A stretch of DNA of 23,028 nt. Source: a virus. Below the pieces are notes generated by a model. That model was not told the DNA's origin, searched no databases, and was given only the letters and a program-made list of their open reading frames with translations. The stretch is taken from positions 1 through 23,028 of IMG/VR virus record IMGVR_UViG_3300023301_000112. One strand, given 5' to 3'. This document shows positions 1,763 to 22,578 of this stretch, one piece after another (the first letter of the stretch is position 1; each line of letters begins with the position of its first letter). Both the position numbers and the translations under genes were made by a program.

Positions 1763-2326
1763 ATGGGACCTAAAGCACCTAAAGAGAAAGTCATCCCCAA
1801 GGAAGTTGCGTTGGCTTACGCCGCGCATCTAGCGCGCAAATCCTTGCATGATTGGTGCTGGGAAGTGAACTACGCCATTAACTCGCGTCATCCCAGGTTC
1901 TTCGTCTACAACACCAAGACCGGCGAGTTCTACAAGTACAAGACCGCTCACGGGATTGGCGGATCTAACCGCACTCCCAAGGATGGCAAGTGTCGTGAGT
2001 TCTCCAACGTGCCTGGGAGCTTCATGTCGAGCCTTGGAGTTGTGCGTACAGGTAACAAGATCCGCTCCGACGCGACGGGCATCTCGGTACGTCTTCAAGG
2101 CTTGTCGATCACGAACTCTCGCATGGGTCCTCGTGGGTGTCATTTACATGGCGGTGCCTACGTGGTCGAATCCGACAACTCGGTGTGTGGGTACTCTCAG
2201 GGTTGCGTCGTGACCGATGATAAGTACATCTCTCGCAAAGACGGCGGCGAGCTGATAGAATGGCTCAAGGACGGATCAATTGGGGTGATCCATCACAACG
2301 GGAGCTTCTTCGAGGGGAAAGTATGA
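1763..2326 (+). CDS. YkuD_2-type L,D-transpeptidase-fold protein; candidate lysis enzyme
   Basis: 187 residues. The core from about residue 90 to 150 follows the YkuD_2 pattern of murein L,D-transpeptidase catalytic domains: TGISVRLQGL, then HLHG (His129, Gly130), then YSQGC (Ser145, Gly147, Cys148). Cys148 would be the nucleophile and His129 its partner. No signal peptide or membrane segment is visible, so access to the periplasm would need a holin, as for a classical endolysin. Known members attack or form peptide cross-links in peptidoglycan. Next to a lysozyme-like gene and a spanin-like pair, a lysis or wall-remodelling role is the natural inference. The start at 1763 has only a weak ribosome site (GGGCGA). 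The family call is from motif reading alone. Confidence 0.65.
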   Translation: MGPKAPKEKVIPKEVALAYAAHLARKSLHDWCWEVNYAINSRHPRFFVYNTKTGEFYKYKTAHGIGGSNRTPKDGKCREFSNVPGSFMSSLGVVRTGNKIRSDATGISVRLQGLSITNSRMGPRGCHLHGGAYVVESDNSVCGYSQGCVVTDDKYISRKDGGELIEWLKDGSIGVIHHNGSFFEGKV

Positions 2327-2940
2327 ACTACATTCTGTATTGGACCTTTGTAGCTCTTGCGTCGGTAAGCATCCTTCAGTTCGTTTCGGGATGCGCCACC
2401 GTGCCGCCTGAAATCCCTACCGTAACCCGACACGAAACCGTGAAACCCTACGCTAGCTGGCCGAATCAGGAGTGGGCTAAGGTCGCTCTCGAAGCAGTAC
2501 GGGCCGAGAAGCTTACAAGCATTCCCATTACGGACGGTAAACTGTTTTGTCCGAAAGGACTCACTGAGCGCAACTGGGTCCACCTCATGGCTGGCATTGT
2601 TACCTATGAATCCAACTTCAAGCCAAGCGCTACATACAGAGAAGCCTTCAAGTCCTCTAATGGGCAGTACGTTCTATCTAGCGGACTTTTCCAAATAAGT
2701 ATTTCTTCCACACAGCAAGCACGCTACGGGTGCAAGTGGTTCAGCCAGGCTGAGCTTCTCGATCCAGTTAAGAACATCCAGTGCTCAGCTAAAGTCATTC
2801 GTGCGCTGGTAACAGAGAACAAAGCTGTTACTAACCACACGGGCACCGCATACAAGGGCACCGCACGTTACTTCTCGACCATGCGCCCAAGTGGCAAGCT
2901 CTCGCAGATCAAAGGCCTTATGGCCAAGTGGTGCGAGTGA
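2323..2940 (+). CDS. Lipoprotein with lysozyme/SLT-like transglycosylase domain
   Basis: The ATG at 2323 follows GAGGGGAAAGT and overlaps the previous stop (ATGA); a reading from 2260 would add residues before an obvious signal peptide. The 205-residue product starts with a hydrophobic segment (about 4-22) ending in VSGC, a lipobox with Cys24 as the lipidated residue. The region 85-160 resembles the goose-lysozyme/SLT fold: catalytic Glu candidate in TYESNF (Glu96), then SSGLFQIS (119-126), and paired cysteines that may form disulfides. Expected role: cleavage of peptidoglycan glycan strands from a membrane-anchored periplasmic position. It may be the main endolysin, a wall-remodelling enzyme, or a virion/entry enzyme; the lysis neighbourhood favours the first two. 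Confidence 0.7.
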   Translation: MNYILYWTFVALASVSILQFVSGCATVPPEIPTVTRHETVKPYASWPNQEWAKVALEAVRAEKLTSIPITDGKLFCPKGLTERNWVHLMAGIVTYESNFKPSATYREAFKSSNGQYVLSSGLFQISISSTQQARYGCKWFSQAELLDPVKNIQCSAKVIRALVTENKAVTNHTGTAYKGTARYFSTMRPSGKLSQIKGLMAKWCE

Positions 2941-2941
2941 C

Positions 2942-3154
2942 ATGCTCTCCCTGGAAGTCATTAACGTAATCATTCAAGGAGTGGTCGGGTTCTTCCTGGC
3001 CTACTTCGCGTATGACTTCCTGACGGAGTTTAAGAAGCTTCGTGAATCGGTTACGGCTCTCAACTCCTCAATGAGCGTTGTTGTGAATCGGCTAGAACGC
3101 GTTGAGCATGACCACGGTCGGCGACTAGACCGCCTGGAGACAGAGGTTCTGTGA
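2942..3154 (+). CDS. Small membrane protein with coiled coil, candidate holin or spanin-like
   Basis: I chose the ATG at 2942, one base after the previous stop; longer readings run into the lysozyme-like gene. The 70-residue product has one membrane segment at about residues 5-26 (VINVIIQGVVGFFLAYFAY), then a charged coiled coil (LTEFKKLRE... to LDRLETEVL). This is the shape of XhlA-like or single-TM holin-associated proteins, and also of short i-spanins. Its place right after the two wall enzymes supports a lysis role. No family-specific motif is visible, so holin remains an inference. Confidence 0.55.
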   Translation: MLSLEVINVIIQGVVGFFLAYFAYDFLTEFKKLRESVTALNSSMSVVVNRLERVEHDHGRRLDRLETEVL

Positions 3155-3573
3155 AGATCAAAGCGCCACCAGGTTGGGATACTGACCTCTGGCGGCAAGC
3201 CCGTGAAGTCGGGCTGGAATGTGTTCTTGTTGTTGATAATCCCGACTTCGAGCTGCTTGTCGACACAGACACCCACAACAAAGGCGTCCGCTCCACTGGC
3301 CCAGATAAAGAGTTCCTTAAGATTATGCAAGCGGCCTGCATAAAGGGGCTGACGGAACCCAACCCTGAATGGCGTGGTGAGTGGTGTGAAAAGCCGATGC
3401 ACACTAAGCCCAAAGACATGGGTTGGCAGGTTTCTAGCGACCACCTTAAAACGACTATTTCTATAGGAAGCACTAAAGAATTGCAGCGTCTAAGCAGGTG
3501 CAGGTCTCAGCTTGTGCGCTCGATAATTAGCGCCTTCGTCACATTGAGTTTAATCCAAAACAAGTTACCATAA
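3151..3573 (+). CDS. Hypothetical protein (140 aa)
   Basis: A GTG start overlaps the previous stop (GTGA at 3151-3154). The N-terminal part, with PGWDTDLWRQAREVGLE and VVDNPDFELLVDTDTHN, looks like a compact folded domain, and there are two Trp-rich stretches around residues 70-90. The last 40 residues are basic and Leu/Ser-rich, unlike the rest, and could reflect a frame change or a degenerate tail. An inverted repeat TTATGCA/TGCATAA lies inside the gene (3323-3343). I do not recognise a family. Its place inside the lysis cassette is the only functional hint. Confidence 0.5.
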   Translation: MKIKAPPGWDTDLWRQAREVGLECVLVVDNPDFELLVDTDTHNKGVRSTGPDKEFLKIMQAACIKGLTEPNPEWRGEWCEKPMHTKPKDMGWQVSSDHLKTTISIGSTKELQRLSRCRSQLVRSIISAFVTLSLIQNKLP

Positions 3574-14902: not shown

Positions 14903-15346
14903 CTACTTCCTTTTGTTCCAATAAATTCTAGTGCTGGGAGTGGACAAGGCCTGCTCTATAGTCATCTTCTTAACTCGCATACGATACCTAATACACCCTG
15001 TGCTAATTGAATATTTTTCACACAGATCTTTTAGGCAATCACCATCAGGGTGCCTGTATTTTATGCTACGTCTTTGGTTTAAGTTCTGCTCTCTTCTTGT
15101 GGCCCATCGGCAGTTGCTGGGCTTGTAATCACCGTCGTTGTTGATTCTGTCTAAAGTTTGGCCCTGAGGACGAGGCCCCATGTCTCTGTAAAAAGACATG
15201 AATGATTTAGACCATCTGGAACAGATCTTGATCCCTCTGCCCCCATAGTCCATGTACTGAGGGCAGCCTTCGTTTAAACATCTTATTTTCATGCCATACC
15301 ACGACGCGTACTCTCTCCTGAAAAACCACACTTTTCTTTTAGTCAT
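14903..15346 (-). CDS. Free-standing HNH-type homing endonuclease-like protein
   Basis: I chose the ATG at 15346 over a TTG at 15349; AGAGGGCG precedes it. Of 147 residues, a pattern I recognise from phage HNH proteins runs [45 protein letters not shown] and [13 protein letters not shown], with Cys and His/Asn-type residues for the metal site. The C-terminal part ([20 protein letters not shown]...MTIEQAL) looks like the helix-turn-helix (NUMOD/IENR-like) DNA-binding tail of homing endonucleases. It sits between two nuclease genes, overlapping the VRR-NUC gene by 8 bases, and by eye looks more AT-rich than its neighbours. Mobile insertion is the likely origin. Confidence 0.7.
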
Positions 15347-15683
15347 CAAGCGCCCTCTTTACGTCTTCTATGGTCGTAACTACAAAATACTTATGGTTCA
15401 TCTTTTTAAGTTTTTCGCTAAATGCCTTCTGGTCGGGGCTAAGTCGACCACCTGGTTTTTTAAACTCAAGGAAGTAAACGGTCCCGTCATTTTTGCAAGC
15501 AATAACGTCAGGCTGCCCTTTTAGATCATACAAAGACTTAGACCTGAAGACCCCAGCTTGCTGGTCGTAGATCCCAGTATTGTTGTTCTTCCATGAGAAA
15601 AAGTCCCCCCGCTTATTGAGATAGTCCAGCGCCTCTCTTTCAAAGTCCTTCTCCAGTCTCACGGTCTTCGGCAAACTGAGCAT
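15339..15683 (-). CDS. VRR-NUC domain nuclease
   Basis: 114 residues, ATG preceded by GGAGG. This is the whole minimal VRR-NUC fold: Glu-containing first helix ([16 protein letters not shown]), then KGQPDV (56-60), then a strand with [17 protein letters not shown] (Glu73, Lys75, Gln85), which is the PD-(D/E)XK metal site. Small stand-alone VRR-NUC proteins in phages cut branched or structured DNA, like Holliday-junction resolvases. The start lies inside the preceding small gene (44-base overlap), so translation is probably coupled. It belongs to the leftward recombination operon. Confidence 0.8.
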
Positions 15684-15843
15684 TTAATGATTCCTCCAGT
15701 CCTGCTTGTTGAACGAGCCAGATCAGGGTGTTTTTTTCCCCCAGATCAAACGATGCTCCTGGTACGTTGTTGCGGATACGCTGGTCGAGCCACTCGATCC
15801 GGCGCTTAACCCGCTTCATGTGTTTCACTTCTTCGCTACTCAT
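15640..15843 (-). CDS. Small conserved-looking protein (67 aa)
   Basis: The ATG at 15843 follows GAGGAAATGATTT and overlaps the helicase gene end by 8 bases. The helical, basic first half (VKHMKRVKRRIEWLDQRI) is followed by a second helix (EKNTLIWLVQQAGLEES). It looks like a small helical bundle found in many phage replication operons. The function is unknown; the pattern (charged first helix, WL/LV core in the second) suggests a DNA- or helicase-associated protein, which I cannot verify. Confidence 0.55.
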   Translation of the reverse strand: MSSEEVKHMKRVKRRIEWLDQRIRNNVPGASFDLGEKNTLIWLVQQAGLEESLNAQFAEDRETGEGL

Positions 15844-18421
15844 AAATCATTTCCTCTATTCTCGGGTACTCACCCCAAGAGACTTTGATGCTCTTAGGCG
15901 TTCTTGGGGTTTGGTTGCCAATGTCGGCTTTCTTCCATGCTGTGATACCAAGCCTGGCCAGCTTGCCTCTAGAGACATGGTTTGAGCCAGCGTCTCCCCA
16001 AGGGCAGTATTCGACCACTGGTTGGGCGAGGATGTTGTCTGGGTAATAAGTGATCTTGGTGCAATCACGCCCAGAGCGTGCAATGTGGTCGCCGATACGC
16101 ACTTCCCTGATTCCTATCCACGACACGTTTGGCCTAGCGCCAGAAAGCAGTTGCCCAGCCTTGTGGCGGGATGACAGGCTTTTAGTCATAGAGCGCTCTG
16201 GAGGTGGTGGAGCCACAAACCCACAGCAAGGGCATTGCTGCACGTCTTTCTCCATGTACTCCAAGCAGCGCTTGCAGAACTTCATTAAGCTCTCTTTGGG
16301 GGCTTTCTCGCCTTTCTTACGAATGAACGGCTTGTCTAGGGGACCGCAGTTTTCGACTACTTTTCCATAATCCAAAACAAGGCAGTCTTCCTTTTCTGGG
16401 AAAACTCGTAGTCCTCGTCCAACCACCTGTAGGTACTTCACAGGACTCCTGGTTGGGCAGCATAGACAAACGGCATCAATCGGAGGGAAGTCGAATCCTT
16501 CCTTAATGATCGAGATGAATGTCAGATGCTTGCCCTGTTCCTTCCAGTGCTTCATCACAGGATCGCGCTCTTGTAGCTTGGAGTGGTAGGCCACAGCATC
16601 TTCCCCGATAGAGCGCAGGATTGCTGCCAACTCCTCAGAGTGCTTGATGCTTGTGCAAGCCCAGACAATCTTCTTACGGCCCTCCAAGCGCTTCATAGCG
16701 TCTGCCACTTGAGCCTCTAGCTTCTTAGTGTCCGAAGTCAGTTCTTCGAGTTGTCCTTGGTCGTAGTCTCCGGCAATTGTCCTAATGCCAGTGAGGTCGA
16801 ACTGCTCCTCAACGCGCTTCATAAGGGGCTTAACAAGAATCCTGTTTTCCAAGGCCCAATGTAGGTCTTTATGATACGCGATTGAGTCGAATACAGAGAC
16901 TTTCTCACCGTAGATAAGCCCACCACTACGGAAGGGCGTCGCTGTCAGTCCCACAACCTTGAGGTCTTTGTTTAGCTCATACTGTCCAGCGATGTACTTA
17001 CGGTAGGCGCTCTCTGCAACGTCCGACAAGTTGTGTGCCTCATCCACAATGACATAGTTGGGGAACGGGCGCTTTGCTGAGTGTAGGCTTTGGATGGTCC
17101 CCACGGTAATGGTGCGACCAACCTGCTTAGGTTGTCCTCCTGTGAAGACACCAACCTGGTCCTCGCTGAAGAACTCAAGCAAGCTACGAACGGTCTGGGC
17201 CAATAGCTCTTTCCGGTTCACAACGAAGTCCACTCGAACGGCAGGGTTTAAACGCAACCACTTCACCATGAGCATGATGGAGATTCTAGTGTTGTGAGTG
17301 ACTGTGAAGTCTCCAAGCAGGAAGAGCCTGTCTCCATCTATTTCAAACCCGTAGTAATCCCCTTCGCCCAAAGACTCTAAAGAGAACCCGCGCACCCTGT
17401 GGTCTTTAACCTGCCTCCTAGCCGCAGCTTTCCGCTTCTCTTGCAGGACGGGAACGGTAGAAATGTCCCCATTTATAAATATCCGCTGGTATGGCCTCGC
17501 TTTATCCCACCCCTCAAGACGAACATGTTTAATTCTTCGAGTGGCGGAAAACCCCAGCCCCCTTGCCAAGTGCAGGATGTCATCACTAAGGCCAATATAT
17601 TTTGTTACGATCTCGTAAGACCCTCCAGCCAGATACCCGTCTGTGTCCATAAGCCCAGCCAACAAGTTCATTCGGTCCCGCCTTGAGGAGGTTAAAAACC
17701 TATGCGGGATGCGTTTCTCATTGTTTATTTTTGCTTCTGAAATGAGGGGCCTGAGGGGATTGCGCTCGCTGCTTCTTCCGCTCAAGGCAAACGAAGAGGC
17801 CCTGTTCTGCGACTTGTATTCCTTGAGCGACAGCCCTTTCGACTCTGCGTAGGTAGAGAGCCAAGCCGTTAAGACTGGAACATTTTTACAGATGATAGGA
17901 TCTCTGTACTGTCCATCTCCTAGCCATAAGCCTAAAAAATATGGGTCATCTCCAAGGTTTGAGTTCTCGTTGAACTCAATGCCTTCAGGAGCCCAGAGTT
18001 TGTACTGCCATTGGATAGTCCTTGCTTTTTTTAAGAAGTCTCCAACGGATACGTTTTCTAATTCGTGCGCGTTACCGGCAACCCTAGGAGATCTTTTGAG
18101 GCTTAAGATATGGGACTTGTTGCACGTCCAAGACTCTCCCTTAATGGGAGTTACTCGGAACATCTCCTCCCTTCCTCTAGATAGGTTTAGGACGGTTCGA
18201 GGCAATGAGTCTGGCCCCATAAGCCTGTCCCCAGCCTCAACATTTTGAACAAGTTTCGTTGTCCCGTCATACATGAGAATGGGCGTGTCTCTACCGAGAC
18301 ATTTACCCATGCCCATCAGAAGGACAATGAGAGCATTGTCAGAGGTGGAAAGCTTATCTTCGACAGCCTGAACGGCTGCGATTTGGTAGTCTCTGTCTCC
18401 AGAGTTTAGGATGTAATCCAT
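15836..18421 (-). CDS. SF2 DNA helicase interrupted by an intein
   Basis: 861 residues as read: helicase 1-40, intein 41-377, helicase 378-861, giving a 524-residue spliced product. The intein lies between Lys40 and Thr378 of the Walker A motif (spliced GMGKT). After it come the DEAH box (IVDEAHN, 458-464), motif III (GLTATPF, 491-497), motif V/VI (QVVGRGLRV, 665-673) and a likely zinc ribbon (CKRC...CPCC, about 716-733). Such ATP-driven helicases unwind branched intermediates or act in recombination (RadD/UvsW-like). The ribosome site AAAGGACTC precedes the ATG. It sits in the recombination operon, upstream of the VRR-NUC gene. No frameshift or missing motif is visible, so it should be active after splicing. 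Confidence 0.85.
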   Translation of the reverse strand: MDYILNSGDRDYQIAAVQAVEDKLSTSDNALIVLLMGMGKCLGRDTPILMYDGTTKLVQNVEAGDRLMGPDSLPRTVLNLSRGREEMFRVTPIKGESWTCNKSHILSLKRSPRVAGNAHELENVSVGDFLKKARTIQWQYKLWAPEGIEFNENSNLGDDPYFLGLWLGDGQYRDPIICKNVPVLTAWLSTYAESKGLSLKEYKSQNRASSFALSGRSSERNPLRPLISEAKINNEKRIPHRFLTSSRRDRMNLLAGLMDTDGYLAGGSYEIVTKYIGLSDDILHLARGLGFSATRRIKHVRLEGWDKARPYQRIFINGDISTVPVLQEKRKAAARRQVKDHRVRGFSLESLGEGDYYGFEIDGDRLFLLGDFTVTHNTRISIMLMVKWLRLNPAVRVDFVVNRKELLAQTVRSLLEFFSEDQVGVFTGGQPKQVGRTITVGTIQSLHSAKRPFPNYVIVDEAHNLSDVAESAYRKYIAGQYELNKDLKVVGLTATPFRSGGLIYGEKVSVFDSIAYHKDLHWALENRILVKPLMKRVEEQFDLTGIRTIAGDYDQGQLEELTSDTKKLEAQVADAMKRLEGRKKIVWACTSIKHSEELAAILRSIGEDAVAYHSKLQERDPVMKHWKEQGKHLTFISIIKEGFDFPPIDAVCLCCPTRSPVKYLQVVGRGLRVFPEKEDCLVLDYGKVVENCGPLDKPFIRKKGEKAPKESLMKFCKRCLEYMEKDVQQCPCCGFVAPPPPERSMTKSLSSRHKAGQLLSGARPNVSWIGIREVRIGDHIARSGRDCTKITYYPDNILAQPVVEYCPWGDAGSNHVSRGKLARLGITAWKKADIGNQTPRTPKSIKVSWGEYPRIEEMIYE
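17291..18301 (-). mobile_element. Intein with LAGLIDADG endonuclease, in helicase Walker A
   Basis: 337 residues. The first residue is Cys (CLGRDTPILMYDG, block A-like) and a block B-like stretch with a His follows (TCNKSHIL). Two dodecapeptide motifs stand in the middle (YFLGLWLGDG and LLAGLMDTDG, about 92 residues apart), the mark of a LAGLIDADG homing endonuclease. The end is block F/G-like: DYYGFEIDGDRLFLLGDFTV then THN, with penultimate His and terminal Asn, and Thr as the +1 residue. All splicing residues are present. The insertion is between the Lys and Thr of GMGKT. The endonuclease metal-site aspartates (in GDG and DTDG) look intact. Confidence 0.9.
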
Positions 18422-19405: not shown

Positions 19406-20137
19406 TTACGCTTTAGTCGTAAGATTTGGTCTGATTTTGTTAAAGATTTTTCCGAGATGCGCTCCCTCAGTAGGGAGTACGTTGCCACGACTCTTGGCCT
19501 TCCAGCGTGCTCCAGGTTGGGTGAGCAACCAACGCAAGCCGTTGCCATTCTCGTCTTTCTGCACTTCGTCAACGACTAGGCGGTACACCTCATCAAAGAG
19601 GCCCATGATGACGCCAATACTCGCTGCACCTGGGTACTCGGGCTCGTAGAACTGACGCTGCTCCTCGTCCTTGACTAGCGACTCTTGACACAGAGCCACA
19701 AAGTCACACCTCAAAGAGTCATTGATGTAGTTAACGAGCTGCGACGTAATCTCAGCAATCTTGCTGTACAAGAAGAATTTATTCTTGGCAATCTCTGCCG
19801 CGTTGTTTTCTTCAATGTACCCCTTGATAATAAATCCAAACTGGGTAAGGGAGTCCAGCATCACGCAGTTGTACTTCTGTACCTCTATCGACTTGATGGC
19901 CTCCACTGTGGCTTTGAACTTTTCTGTGGCAGTTACATAGGGGACTCCATCATCATTCTTGGTAAGATCTAGGAAGGCGATCTTAGTTCCAGACAATGAC
20001 CTCAAGCCGTTTTCAAGAGATAACACAATAGGGTTATCTAATGTTTTCGCAAGGGATGTCTTCCCGTGGCCCTGCTTACCATATACGACGACTCGTATGG
20101 GTCCTTGGTGGATAGACTCGGTGCTCTGAATTTTCAT
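19406..20137 (-). CDS. Sak4-like RecA-fold ATPase (phage recombinase / DNA-repair NTPase)
   Basis: 243 residues. Walker A reads GKQGHGKTS (20-28), and a Walker B-like VMLDSLTQF (92-100) follows. A short core with SLENGLRSL after the P-loop and an acidic C-terminal end match phage 'AAA_24/Sak4' annealing-type ATPases. The family helps single-strand annealing or RecA-like strand exchange with a DUF669-type protein. It is the first gene of the leftward operon, about 60 bases from the divergent HTH gene. The ribosome site (AAAGG) is 12 bases from the ATG, a slightly long spacing. No second start is close. Confidence 0.8.
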   Translation of the reverse strand: MKIQSTESIHQGPIRVVVYGKQGHGKTSLAKTLDNPIVLSLENGLRSLSGTKIAFLDLTKNDDGVPYVTATEKFKATVEAIKSIEVQKYNCVMLDSLTQFGFIIKGYIEENNAAEIAKNKFFLYSKIAEITSQLVNYINDSLRCDFVALCQESLVKDEEQRQFYEPEYPGAASIGVIMGLFDEVYRLVVDEVQKDENGNGLRWLLTQPGARWKAKSRGNVLPTEGAHLGKIFNKIRPNLTTKA

Positions 20138-20430: not shown

Positions 20431-22578
20431 GTGCTGTTCGGGGAGAAAGCACCTCCGCTGTGGGAAGCGGGGATTTCAGTAATTCCATGTGCGGGGAAAC
20501 GACCCGTCATCAAAGGCTGGCAGCAATACTGCGAGCAGCAAGCTGAGCCATCCCTGATGGGCGCTTGGGAGTCGATCTACTCAGACTGCAACATCGGCAT
20601 GGCCTGTGGGCGCGCTAGTGGCATCGTAGTCCTAGACATCGACGACCCCTCTCTGGTCGACGAGCTTCCTCAATCGCCTGTATCATGGCGTGGACGTGAA
20701 GGACGTGAGAGCAGGGCATTTAAATGGTCTGGTGAGACTGTTGAGCATTACCTGGGTATCGACATCATCGGCACTGGTGGACAAGTCATCTTGCCCCCAT
20801 CTATCCACCCCATAACAGGGCAGCCTTACGTCTGGCTCAACAACGCGCTTCCGTATGAAGATCTGCCTGAGCTACCCAAGGCGCGCCCCTCAATCCTCTA
20901 CCGTGACAAAGCCACGCCTGTGGTTGTGAACGGTCAGGTCCAAGCAGTAAAGCCTGGGCGCTGGACAGCCATGGGGTCTATATCTTTCAAGATGGCTTGC
21001 GATGGCTTCAGCAAAGGAAAGATCTCTGAGGGTCTTCTTGAGTGCGCTCACAACAGTTGGTTCTCTGACATTACAGAGAAACATCGTGGGCAAAACCATC
21101 AGTTTGAAGCTGACAAGATTTCATCCACGGCAATCGACAAAGCTATTCTACAAAACAAGCGCCAGCACCAAGATGGTGACGATACTGTTATCGACCTGTC
21201 AGAGCTTATGGCTGTTAAGGTGCATCAACGCGACCCATGCTCTGCCGAAGCCTTTGTTCCTCCTCCGCTCCCCAAGGAAGGGGCCTTGCGTTGGATCTAC
21301 GAATACATCGAGCAGCAGTCTAGTCCCCAGATCCCAAGCCTTGCTATGGGTGGTGCTATCGCCATCATGTCGGCACTGCTTCAAAACCGCTTCAAGTGTG
21401 GTCGCATCGGCCTAAATACTTACGTCTTAAACATCGCACCCTCTGGCACTGGTAAGTCCTACCCCTACACCGCTGTAGAAAAAATCGTCCCGCTGCCTTT
21501 GTTGGGAGCAGGTGGCTACAAGTCGGGCAAGGTGTTTACACAGGGTCTTGGTAAGCAGCGTGAACGTCTGGACCTTTTGGACGAAGTGTCTGCGATGTTT
21601 GCTCACATGCGTGATGGCTCAAGCTTCCAAACTGAGATGGTCGATATCATCTGCGGCATGTGGTCGGCTGGGCCTACGAGTTACTTCCGTCTTTCACAGT
21701 CTTCGAGTGGCCTTAAAGAAGGTGAGCGCGCTGGCGTTTGGTCCCCTGCCGTTTCCATGCTGGCCTCAACCACGGACTCGGGGCTCCTTAGCTCTATCTC
21801 ACGCACCATGACTGAGAAGGGGTTCTTCCCTCGCTTCATGATCTTCCCCCAGCCCATGCTCGACTGGAAAGAAGAACTGTCCACTGAGGACTATCTCGGT
21901 CCTATCCTCAGGTGGCGGGACATGATCTTCGAGCGGTATCCGATCCTAGTGGCCGGAGCGACCAACGGGCCCAACAACGTACAGAATAGCTATACCGAAG
22001 CGTCGGATGCCCAGCGTCTTGCTCGTGACGTGCAGCCTTTCGACAGAAACTTTCTTGCTGAGATGTCCAAGCGTTACTTTCTGGCCCGTAAGCTAGAGGA
22101 GGCTGATGAATCCTTTGACGCCTTCCAAGCGCGTAAGATTGAGCAAGTCGTTAAGATCGCTCTTATGTACGAGCTTGGCCGTATGACTGACCCATGTGCC
22201 ACAGAGATTGTCTTGATTGATGATGGCAACGGTAAGACTCACGAGGAGGCTTACGCTTCAGAGGATTTTACCATTCAAGCGGATGCTTTCGAGTACGCTG
22301 AAAAGCTTTGGGATTGGATGTTCGTGTCACAGCGTCTTTTCATCTCCAACCTGGCAGAGTCGAGTGACCGCATCCGTCAGATGAAACAGATCTACAAGTA
22401 CATCGCTGACGCTAAGCAATTTGGTGTCAGCCACGCTATGTTCACAAAGCGGTTTGCGCGAGTTCCTCGTCGTGAACGTGATGAGATTATCAGCGACCTC
22501 ATTGTGAGTGAGCAGATCAAGGTTCTCCAGGTGGGGTCCTTGGTGGGCGGCAATCGCAAGGTTTACGTATCCATGTAA
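20431..22578 (+). CDS. Primase-polymerase/helicase fusion (prim-pol N-terminus, P-loop ATPase C-terminus)
   Basis: A GTG start with AAGGAAG before it follows the HTH stop by 2 bases. Residues 1-155 resemble the bifunctional primase/polymerase domain: GRASGIVVLDIDDPS (acidic pair Asp69/Asp71), WRGREG, and GGQVILPPSIHP (Ser124/His126). Residues about 275-715 are a DUF3987/SF3-like helicase: Walker A NIAPSGTGKSY (334-344) and Walker B DLLDEVSAMF (381-390). Such fusions start and unwind phage replication forks in one protein. No other replicative helicase or primase is visible, so this is likely the main one. The helicase family is read from Walker motifs only. Confidence 0.75.
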   Translation: MLFGEKAPPLWEAGISVIPCAGKRPVIKGWQQYCEQQAEPSLMGAWESIYSDCNIGMACGRASGIVVLDIDDPSLVDELPQSPVSWRGREGRESRAFKWSGETVEHYLGIDIIGTGGQVILPPSIHPITGQPYVWLNNALPYEDLPELPKARPSILYRDKATPVVVNGQVQAVKPGRWTAMGSISFKMACDGFSKGKISEGLLECAHNSWFSDITEKHRGQNHQFEADKISSTAIDKAILQNKRQHQDGDDTVIDLSELMAVKVHQRDPCSAEAFVPPPLPKEGALRWIYEYIEQQSSPQIPSLAMGGAIAIMSALLQNRFKCGRIGLNTYVLNIAPSGTGKSYPYTAVEKIVPLPLLGAGGYKSGKVFTQGLGKQRERLDLLDEVSAMFAHMRDGSSFQTEMVDIICGMWSAGPTSYFRLSQSSSGLKEGERAGVWSPAVSMLASTTDSGLLSSISRTMTEKGFFPRFMIFPQPMLDWKEELSTEDYLGPILRWRDMIFERYPILVAGATNGPNNVQNSYTEASDAQRLARDVQPFDRNFLAEMSKRYFLARKLEEADESFDAFQARKIEQVVKIALMYELGRMTDPCATEIVLIDDGNGKTHEEAYASEDFTIQADAFEYAEKLWDWMFVSQRLFISNLAESSDRIRQMKQIYKYIADAKQFGVSHAMFTKRFARVPRRERDEIISDLIVSEQIKVLQVGSLVGGNRKVYVSM

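Follow-up and report, generated by a model that had tools for sequence, protein, structure and literature searches.

An apparently intact class 1 intein in the Walker A motif of a RadD-like phage helicase

A helicase gene from a virus (IMG/VR record IMGVR_UViG_3300023301_000112) is interrupted in frame within its P-loop, which raises two questions: what kind of element is placed there, and whether the position that it occupies is a new one. The window, that is, the whole stretch of DNA analysed, comprises 23,028 nucleotides and corresponds to a metagenomic virus record of 23 kb, possibly a fragment.

The interrupted helicase and its exteins

The gene (15836..18421, minus strand; stop codon at 15836-15838) is an open reading frame coding for an intein-containing precursor of 861 aa. 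The extein domains found with Pfam are ResIII (E=6.2e-17) and Helicase_C (E=3.1e-8), and the precursor also matches the PHROG 16 DNA helicase family (E=6.5e-64) and the RadD structure 6jde (E=2.9e-28). The match with the NCBIfam RadD model NF053632 (E=1.1e-42, 146 bits) falls far short of the equivalog cut-off of 720, and for this reason the host protein is termed a RadD-like SF2 helicase and is not filed as RadD (YejH).

Pfam, alignment, AlphaFold and the matches with PI-SceI delimit the intein as precursor residues 41-377 (17291..18301, minus strand). It has 337 aa, from Cys1 to His336-Asn337, in agreement with the original prediction, which was exact in coordinates and lengths and had already described a Cys start and a His-Asn end followed by Thr. 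The N-extein (40 aa; 18302..18421, minus strand), defined by alignment to intein-free helicases, finishes with LLMGMGK, the Walker A motif through its Lys. The C-extein (484 aa; 15839..17290, minus strand) begins with TRISIM, its first residue being the Walker A Thr, and holds the DEAH box, the helicase C domain and a zinc-ribbon-like tail of the CxxC...CxxC type. Once the insert is removed, the helicase is predicted to read ...LLMGMGK-TRISIM... and to have 524 aa, the same length that had been anticipated, as calculated by removal of residues 41-377.

The best intein-free relatives of the extein are the helicases from Roseobacter phage CRP-902 and Alteromonas phage XX1924, with around 29% identity. 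The spliced helicase aligns with both of them without any gap across the P-loop, and a simple pattern search detected an uninterrupted GxGKT/S in 11 of 12 intein-free relatives. The exteins consequently rejoin into a known uninterrupted protein, as is characteristic of class 1 inteins, and the clean rejoining at GMGK-T that had been expected is borne out. On the other hand, when viral contigs were scanned for the spliced extein, no close relative was found, and hence no sister gene with an empty site that would point to recent homing. The GC contents of intein (49.1%) and extein (51.3%) are near-equal and thus give no sign of recent arrival. To see if this helicase acquired its intein independently, an extein tree was built, in which the window protein has a long branch that falls between the group without and the group with an intein, a position that is weakly supported (80/39). 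The intein itself also forms a long branch in its own tree.

The helicase sits in a phage DNA recombination/replication block together with a YqaJ/RecE-like exonuclease, an HNH nuclease, a VRR-NUC nuclease, a DUF669 protein and a Sak4-like AAA_24 ATPase, and with a Prim-Pol primase on the opposite strand. The HNH endonuclease (14903-15349, minus strand; PHROG 3377, 1e-45) is free-standing, lies between the exonuclease and VRR-NUC genes with a slight overlap with both, and constitutes a second possible mobile endonuclease near the intein-bearing helicase. The P-loops of the Sak4-like ATPase (GHGKT; 19406-20137, minus strand) and of the Prim-Pol/DUF3987 primase (GTGKS; 20431-22578, plus strand) are uninterrupted, so the intein has not entered either of these genes. 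Elsewhere in the window, a YkuD-type L,D-transpeptidase (1763-2326, plus strand) and an SLT lytic transglycosylase (2260-2940, plus strand) are encoded by overlapping genes, a pair of cell-wall enzymes that is unusual in a phage.

Splicing and endonuclease domains

At the N-terminal splice junction (18296..18313, minus strand) the codons GGC ATG GGT AAA / TGT CTC specify GMGK/CL, and at the C-terminal junction (17279..17299, minus strand) ACT CAC AAC / ACT AGA ATC TCC specify THN/TRIS. In precursor numbering, the first residue of the intein is C41, the last ones are H376-N377 and the +1 residue is T378. Block B (18098..18121, minus strand) reads N61-K-S-H64-ILSL, with the N-x-x-H arrangement present in PI-SceI. 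C1, N61, H64, H336 and N337 do not vary among 33 aligned sequences; the block A Cys and the terminal Asn, whose loss had been named as evidence against an intein, are both intact. A search against intein profile models, as had been proposed, matched Hom_end_hint (PF05203, E=2.7e-19), starting at residue 41, the Cys, and above its curated cut-off. By its sequence, the insert is a class 1 intein, with Cys1, the block B N61-x-x-H64, His336-Asn337 and a +1 Thr, and because the +1 residue is Thr, the host's Walker A Thr would serve as second nucleophile. As had been foreseen for this phage SF2 helicase, the P-loop is split between the Lys and the Thr (GMGK/T), which places the element in the P-loop insertion class.

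The AlphaFold (AF2) model of the intein (mean pLDDT 93.6, pTM 0.91) matches PI-SceI and Prp8 inteins and so points to a Hint fold. When compared with the PDB by Foldseek, the top eleven matches are all PI-SceI structures, the best one being 1ef0 (E=5.4e-28). It could be argued that the element is no intein, but either an intron in frame or an inserted domain that the mature protein keeps. The sole point for such an interpretation is that the insertion is in frame, whereas the frame is open throughout, the splice junctions carry the residues of inteins, a Hint fold is predicted and the exact junction is in common with annotated inteins; this explanation has a negligible probability.

Two LAGLIDADG-type motifs had been recognised from the sequence, and both are conserved across the 33 aligned sequences: FLGLWLGDG (intein residues 122-130; 17912..17938, minus strand), in which D129 is aligned with D218 from PI-SceI, and LAGLMDTDG (residues 214-222; 17636..17662, minus strand), in which D221 is aligned with D326. 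The Pfam model Hom_end (PF05204) matches the precursor above its curated cut-off (E=8.2e-5). LAGLIDADG_3 gave no matches in the whole record because this model is too distant, Hom_end being the one that matches. A profile search pairs the intein with C1, D218, D326, K301 and N454 from PI-SceI, K196 being the equivalent of K301. The catalytic role of D218, D326 and K301 in PI-SceI is established. In the same alignment, the conservation of D129, D221 and K196 reaches 90% or more. With two motifs that carry the catalytic acidic residues, and all of the expected catalytic residues in place, the endonuclease looks intact; the residues for splicing and homing (C1, N61, H64, H336, N337, the +1 Thr, D129, D221 and K196) are therefore present, as originally predicted.

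The element is thus, with high probability, a homing intein of class 1, full-length and, like PI-SceI, composed of a Hint and a LAGLIDADG part; splicing, cleavage, homing and an ATP-dead precursor are inferred. The helicase would be translated as a precursor of 861 residues, and by means of Cys1, Asn337 and the +1 Thr378 the intein would cut itself out and ligate Lys40 to Thr378, producing an active helicase of 524 residues with a restored GMGKT P-loop. If intein-plus and intein-minus phages meet in one cell, the LAGLIDADG domain would cleave the Walker A codons of the empty helicase gene, which would then receive a copy of the intein through double-strand-break repair; the recombination genes of the phage itself could help in this step. 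That the intein can still splice but has lost its endonuclease activity, and is now inherited with the gene, appears unlikely, though this deserves some weight. Its branch is long and divergent, with no close relative, and the conservation of aspartates is by itself no proof of activity; nevertheless, D129, D221 and K196 (D218, D326 and K301 in PI-SceI) are all retained and the domain is modelled at high confidence.

The P-loop of the precursor is interrupted by the intein, and from this it can be strongly inferred that the precursor would be unable to hydrolyse ATP, as also suggested by the RadA result that PMC6195587 cites. That source reports conditional splicing or lost ATPase function for the P-loop inteins in DnaB from M. 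smegmatis and RadA from P. horikoshii. Related to this, the intein might act as a regulatory switch, whose conditional splicing (depending, e.g., on redox state, DNA or phage stage) gates the helicase during infection. Both the reported behaviour of the DnaB and RadA inteins and the interruption of the Walker A motif, with its Thr serving as the +1 residue, are in favour of such a role. Gating of replication or recombination by splicing had also been suggested originally; it is possible, but nothing in this sequence speaks for it. There is no hint of a sensor in the sequence, related phage helicases exist without an intein, and the P-loop is also the best site for a selfish element, given its conservation and the fact that only a precise loss is tolerated there. 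A switch is consequently improbable, and the element is most likely a selfish, splicing-competent homing intein.

One intein lineage in several P-loop ATPases

The window intein and its relatives, extracted from phage, viral-contig and bacterial-genome loci, make up a sample of 132 sequences. All 132 end with HN followed by T or S, and 130 start with C. The exact Walker A Lys/Thr or Lys/Ser position is occupied in 128 of the 132, a rate (97%) that is biased, as the sample was gathered by similarity to the window intein and is dominated by DnaB. The hosts, most of them labelled by similarity to Pfam-scanned examples, include DnaB (82), RadD-like SF2 helicases (31), SNF2-like proteins, SNF2 plus DNA methylase proteins, ClpB-like proteins and RecD2. 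In three viral contigs (L028, L026 and L031) the intein is found in the P-loop of a protein that combines an SNF2-like region with an N6/N4 DNA methylase.

Four relatives depart from the common position. In Escherichia phage PJ16 (SF2 helicase) and Vibrio phage pYD38-A (terminase large subunit) the insertion is at G/SGKT, a shifted site two residues upstream within Walker A. In the crAss-like phage cr118_1 (match at 2501-3562 of that phage) the gene is annotated as a portal protein, and the insertion at EGGK/S is in a Gly-Lys/Ser look-alike rather than in a known P-loop ATPase. The fourth exception is a distant terminase intein from a mycobacteriophage.

Host types form strong but imperfect clusters in the intein tree (13 changes, where 8 would be the minimum), so the intein appears to have moved between unrelated ATPases, but rarely or early. 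It is a tentative proposal that one lineage spreads among RadD-like and SNF2-like SF2 helicases, DnaB, RecD2 and ClpB-like proteins because its endonuclease would tolerate the degenerate Walker A codons, the P-loop codons themselves being the putative homing site. The presence of one lineage at the same Lys/Thr in several unrelated ATPases makes the cause of P-loop intein enrichment testable, the two candidates being endonuclease targeting of Walker A codons and selection for regulation.

Known inteins at the same position

Intein relatives are present in 651 phage records, in 447 of which they cover at least 80% of the intein length (tblastn), a number far beyond chance. Catalogued carriers, phages as well as bacteria, number in the hundreds, most with the intein at the same Walker A spot. 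The suggestion that this helicase position, with an intact endonuclease, might be new is not supported: a homologous LAGLIDADG intein is placed at the same point in SF2 helicases from Klebsiella, Vibrio, E. coli and Salmonella phages, and the element is already annotated in two of them, Ent1 gp34 and Bas95. The P-loop insertion class has been defined by an insert between the invariant Walker A Lys and Thr/Ser, K/T being the 'classic' insertion (PMC5050341).

The gp34 protein from Salmonella phage vB_SenS-Ent1 (Jerseyvirus; HE775250, CCG55216) is annotated as a 'putative intein containing helicase precursor', with an intein 'encoding splicing domains and a homing endonuclease of the LAGLIDADG type'. 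The source for this intein is its record annotation, and no dedicated study of Ent1 or Salmonella phage helicase inteins was found in the open-access literature. It is 37.9% identical to the window intein over 100% of the length and is inserted at GSGK/T; however, it has 347 aa and its host helicase is SNF2-like instead of RadD-like. RadD/ResIII-type SF2 helicases are the hosts in Klebsiella phages JD001/MEW1, Vibrio phages 393E50-1 and 1.009.O and E. coli phage HelliStehle Bas95. Their inteins, at G[GA]GK/T, are 41-43% identical to the window intein, whereas the exteins share only about 24-27% identity with the window extein. The Bas95 helicase is annotated as 'similar to intein', and this group mostly lacks intein annotation.

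Other known inteins share the position in different host proteins. The bacterial DnaB P-loop inteins (Bacteroidota, Campylobacterota) are also inserted at the Walker A Lys/Thr, and so are the TerL1-a inteins of mycobacteriophages (PMC5050341); the terminase inteins recovered from mycobacteriophages in this analysis share just about 26-28% identity with the window intein. PI-SceI, the yeast VMA1 intein, is the best match among solved structures, by profile and by fold, and has the Hint blocks and the LAGLIDADG catalytic residues in common with the window intein, but it has 454 aa and occupies another insertion site in another host protein. The window intein is therefore a divergent new member of a known P-loop intein family, large and widespread in phage helicases, to which it adds one apparently intact example at an insertion position that was already known.
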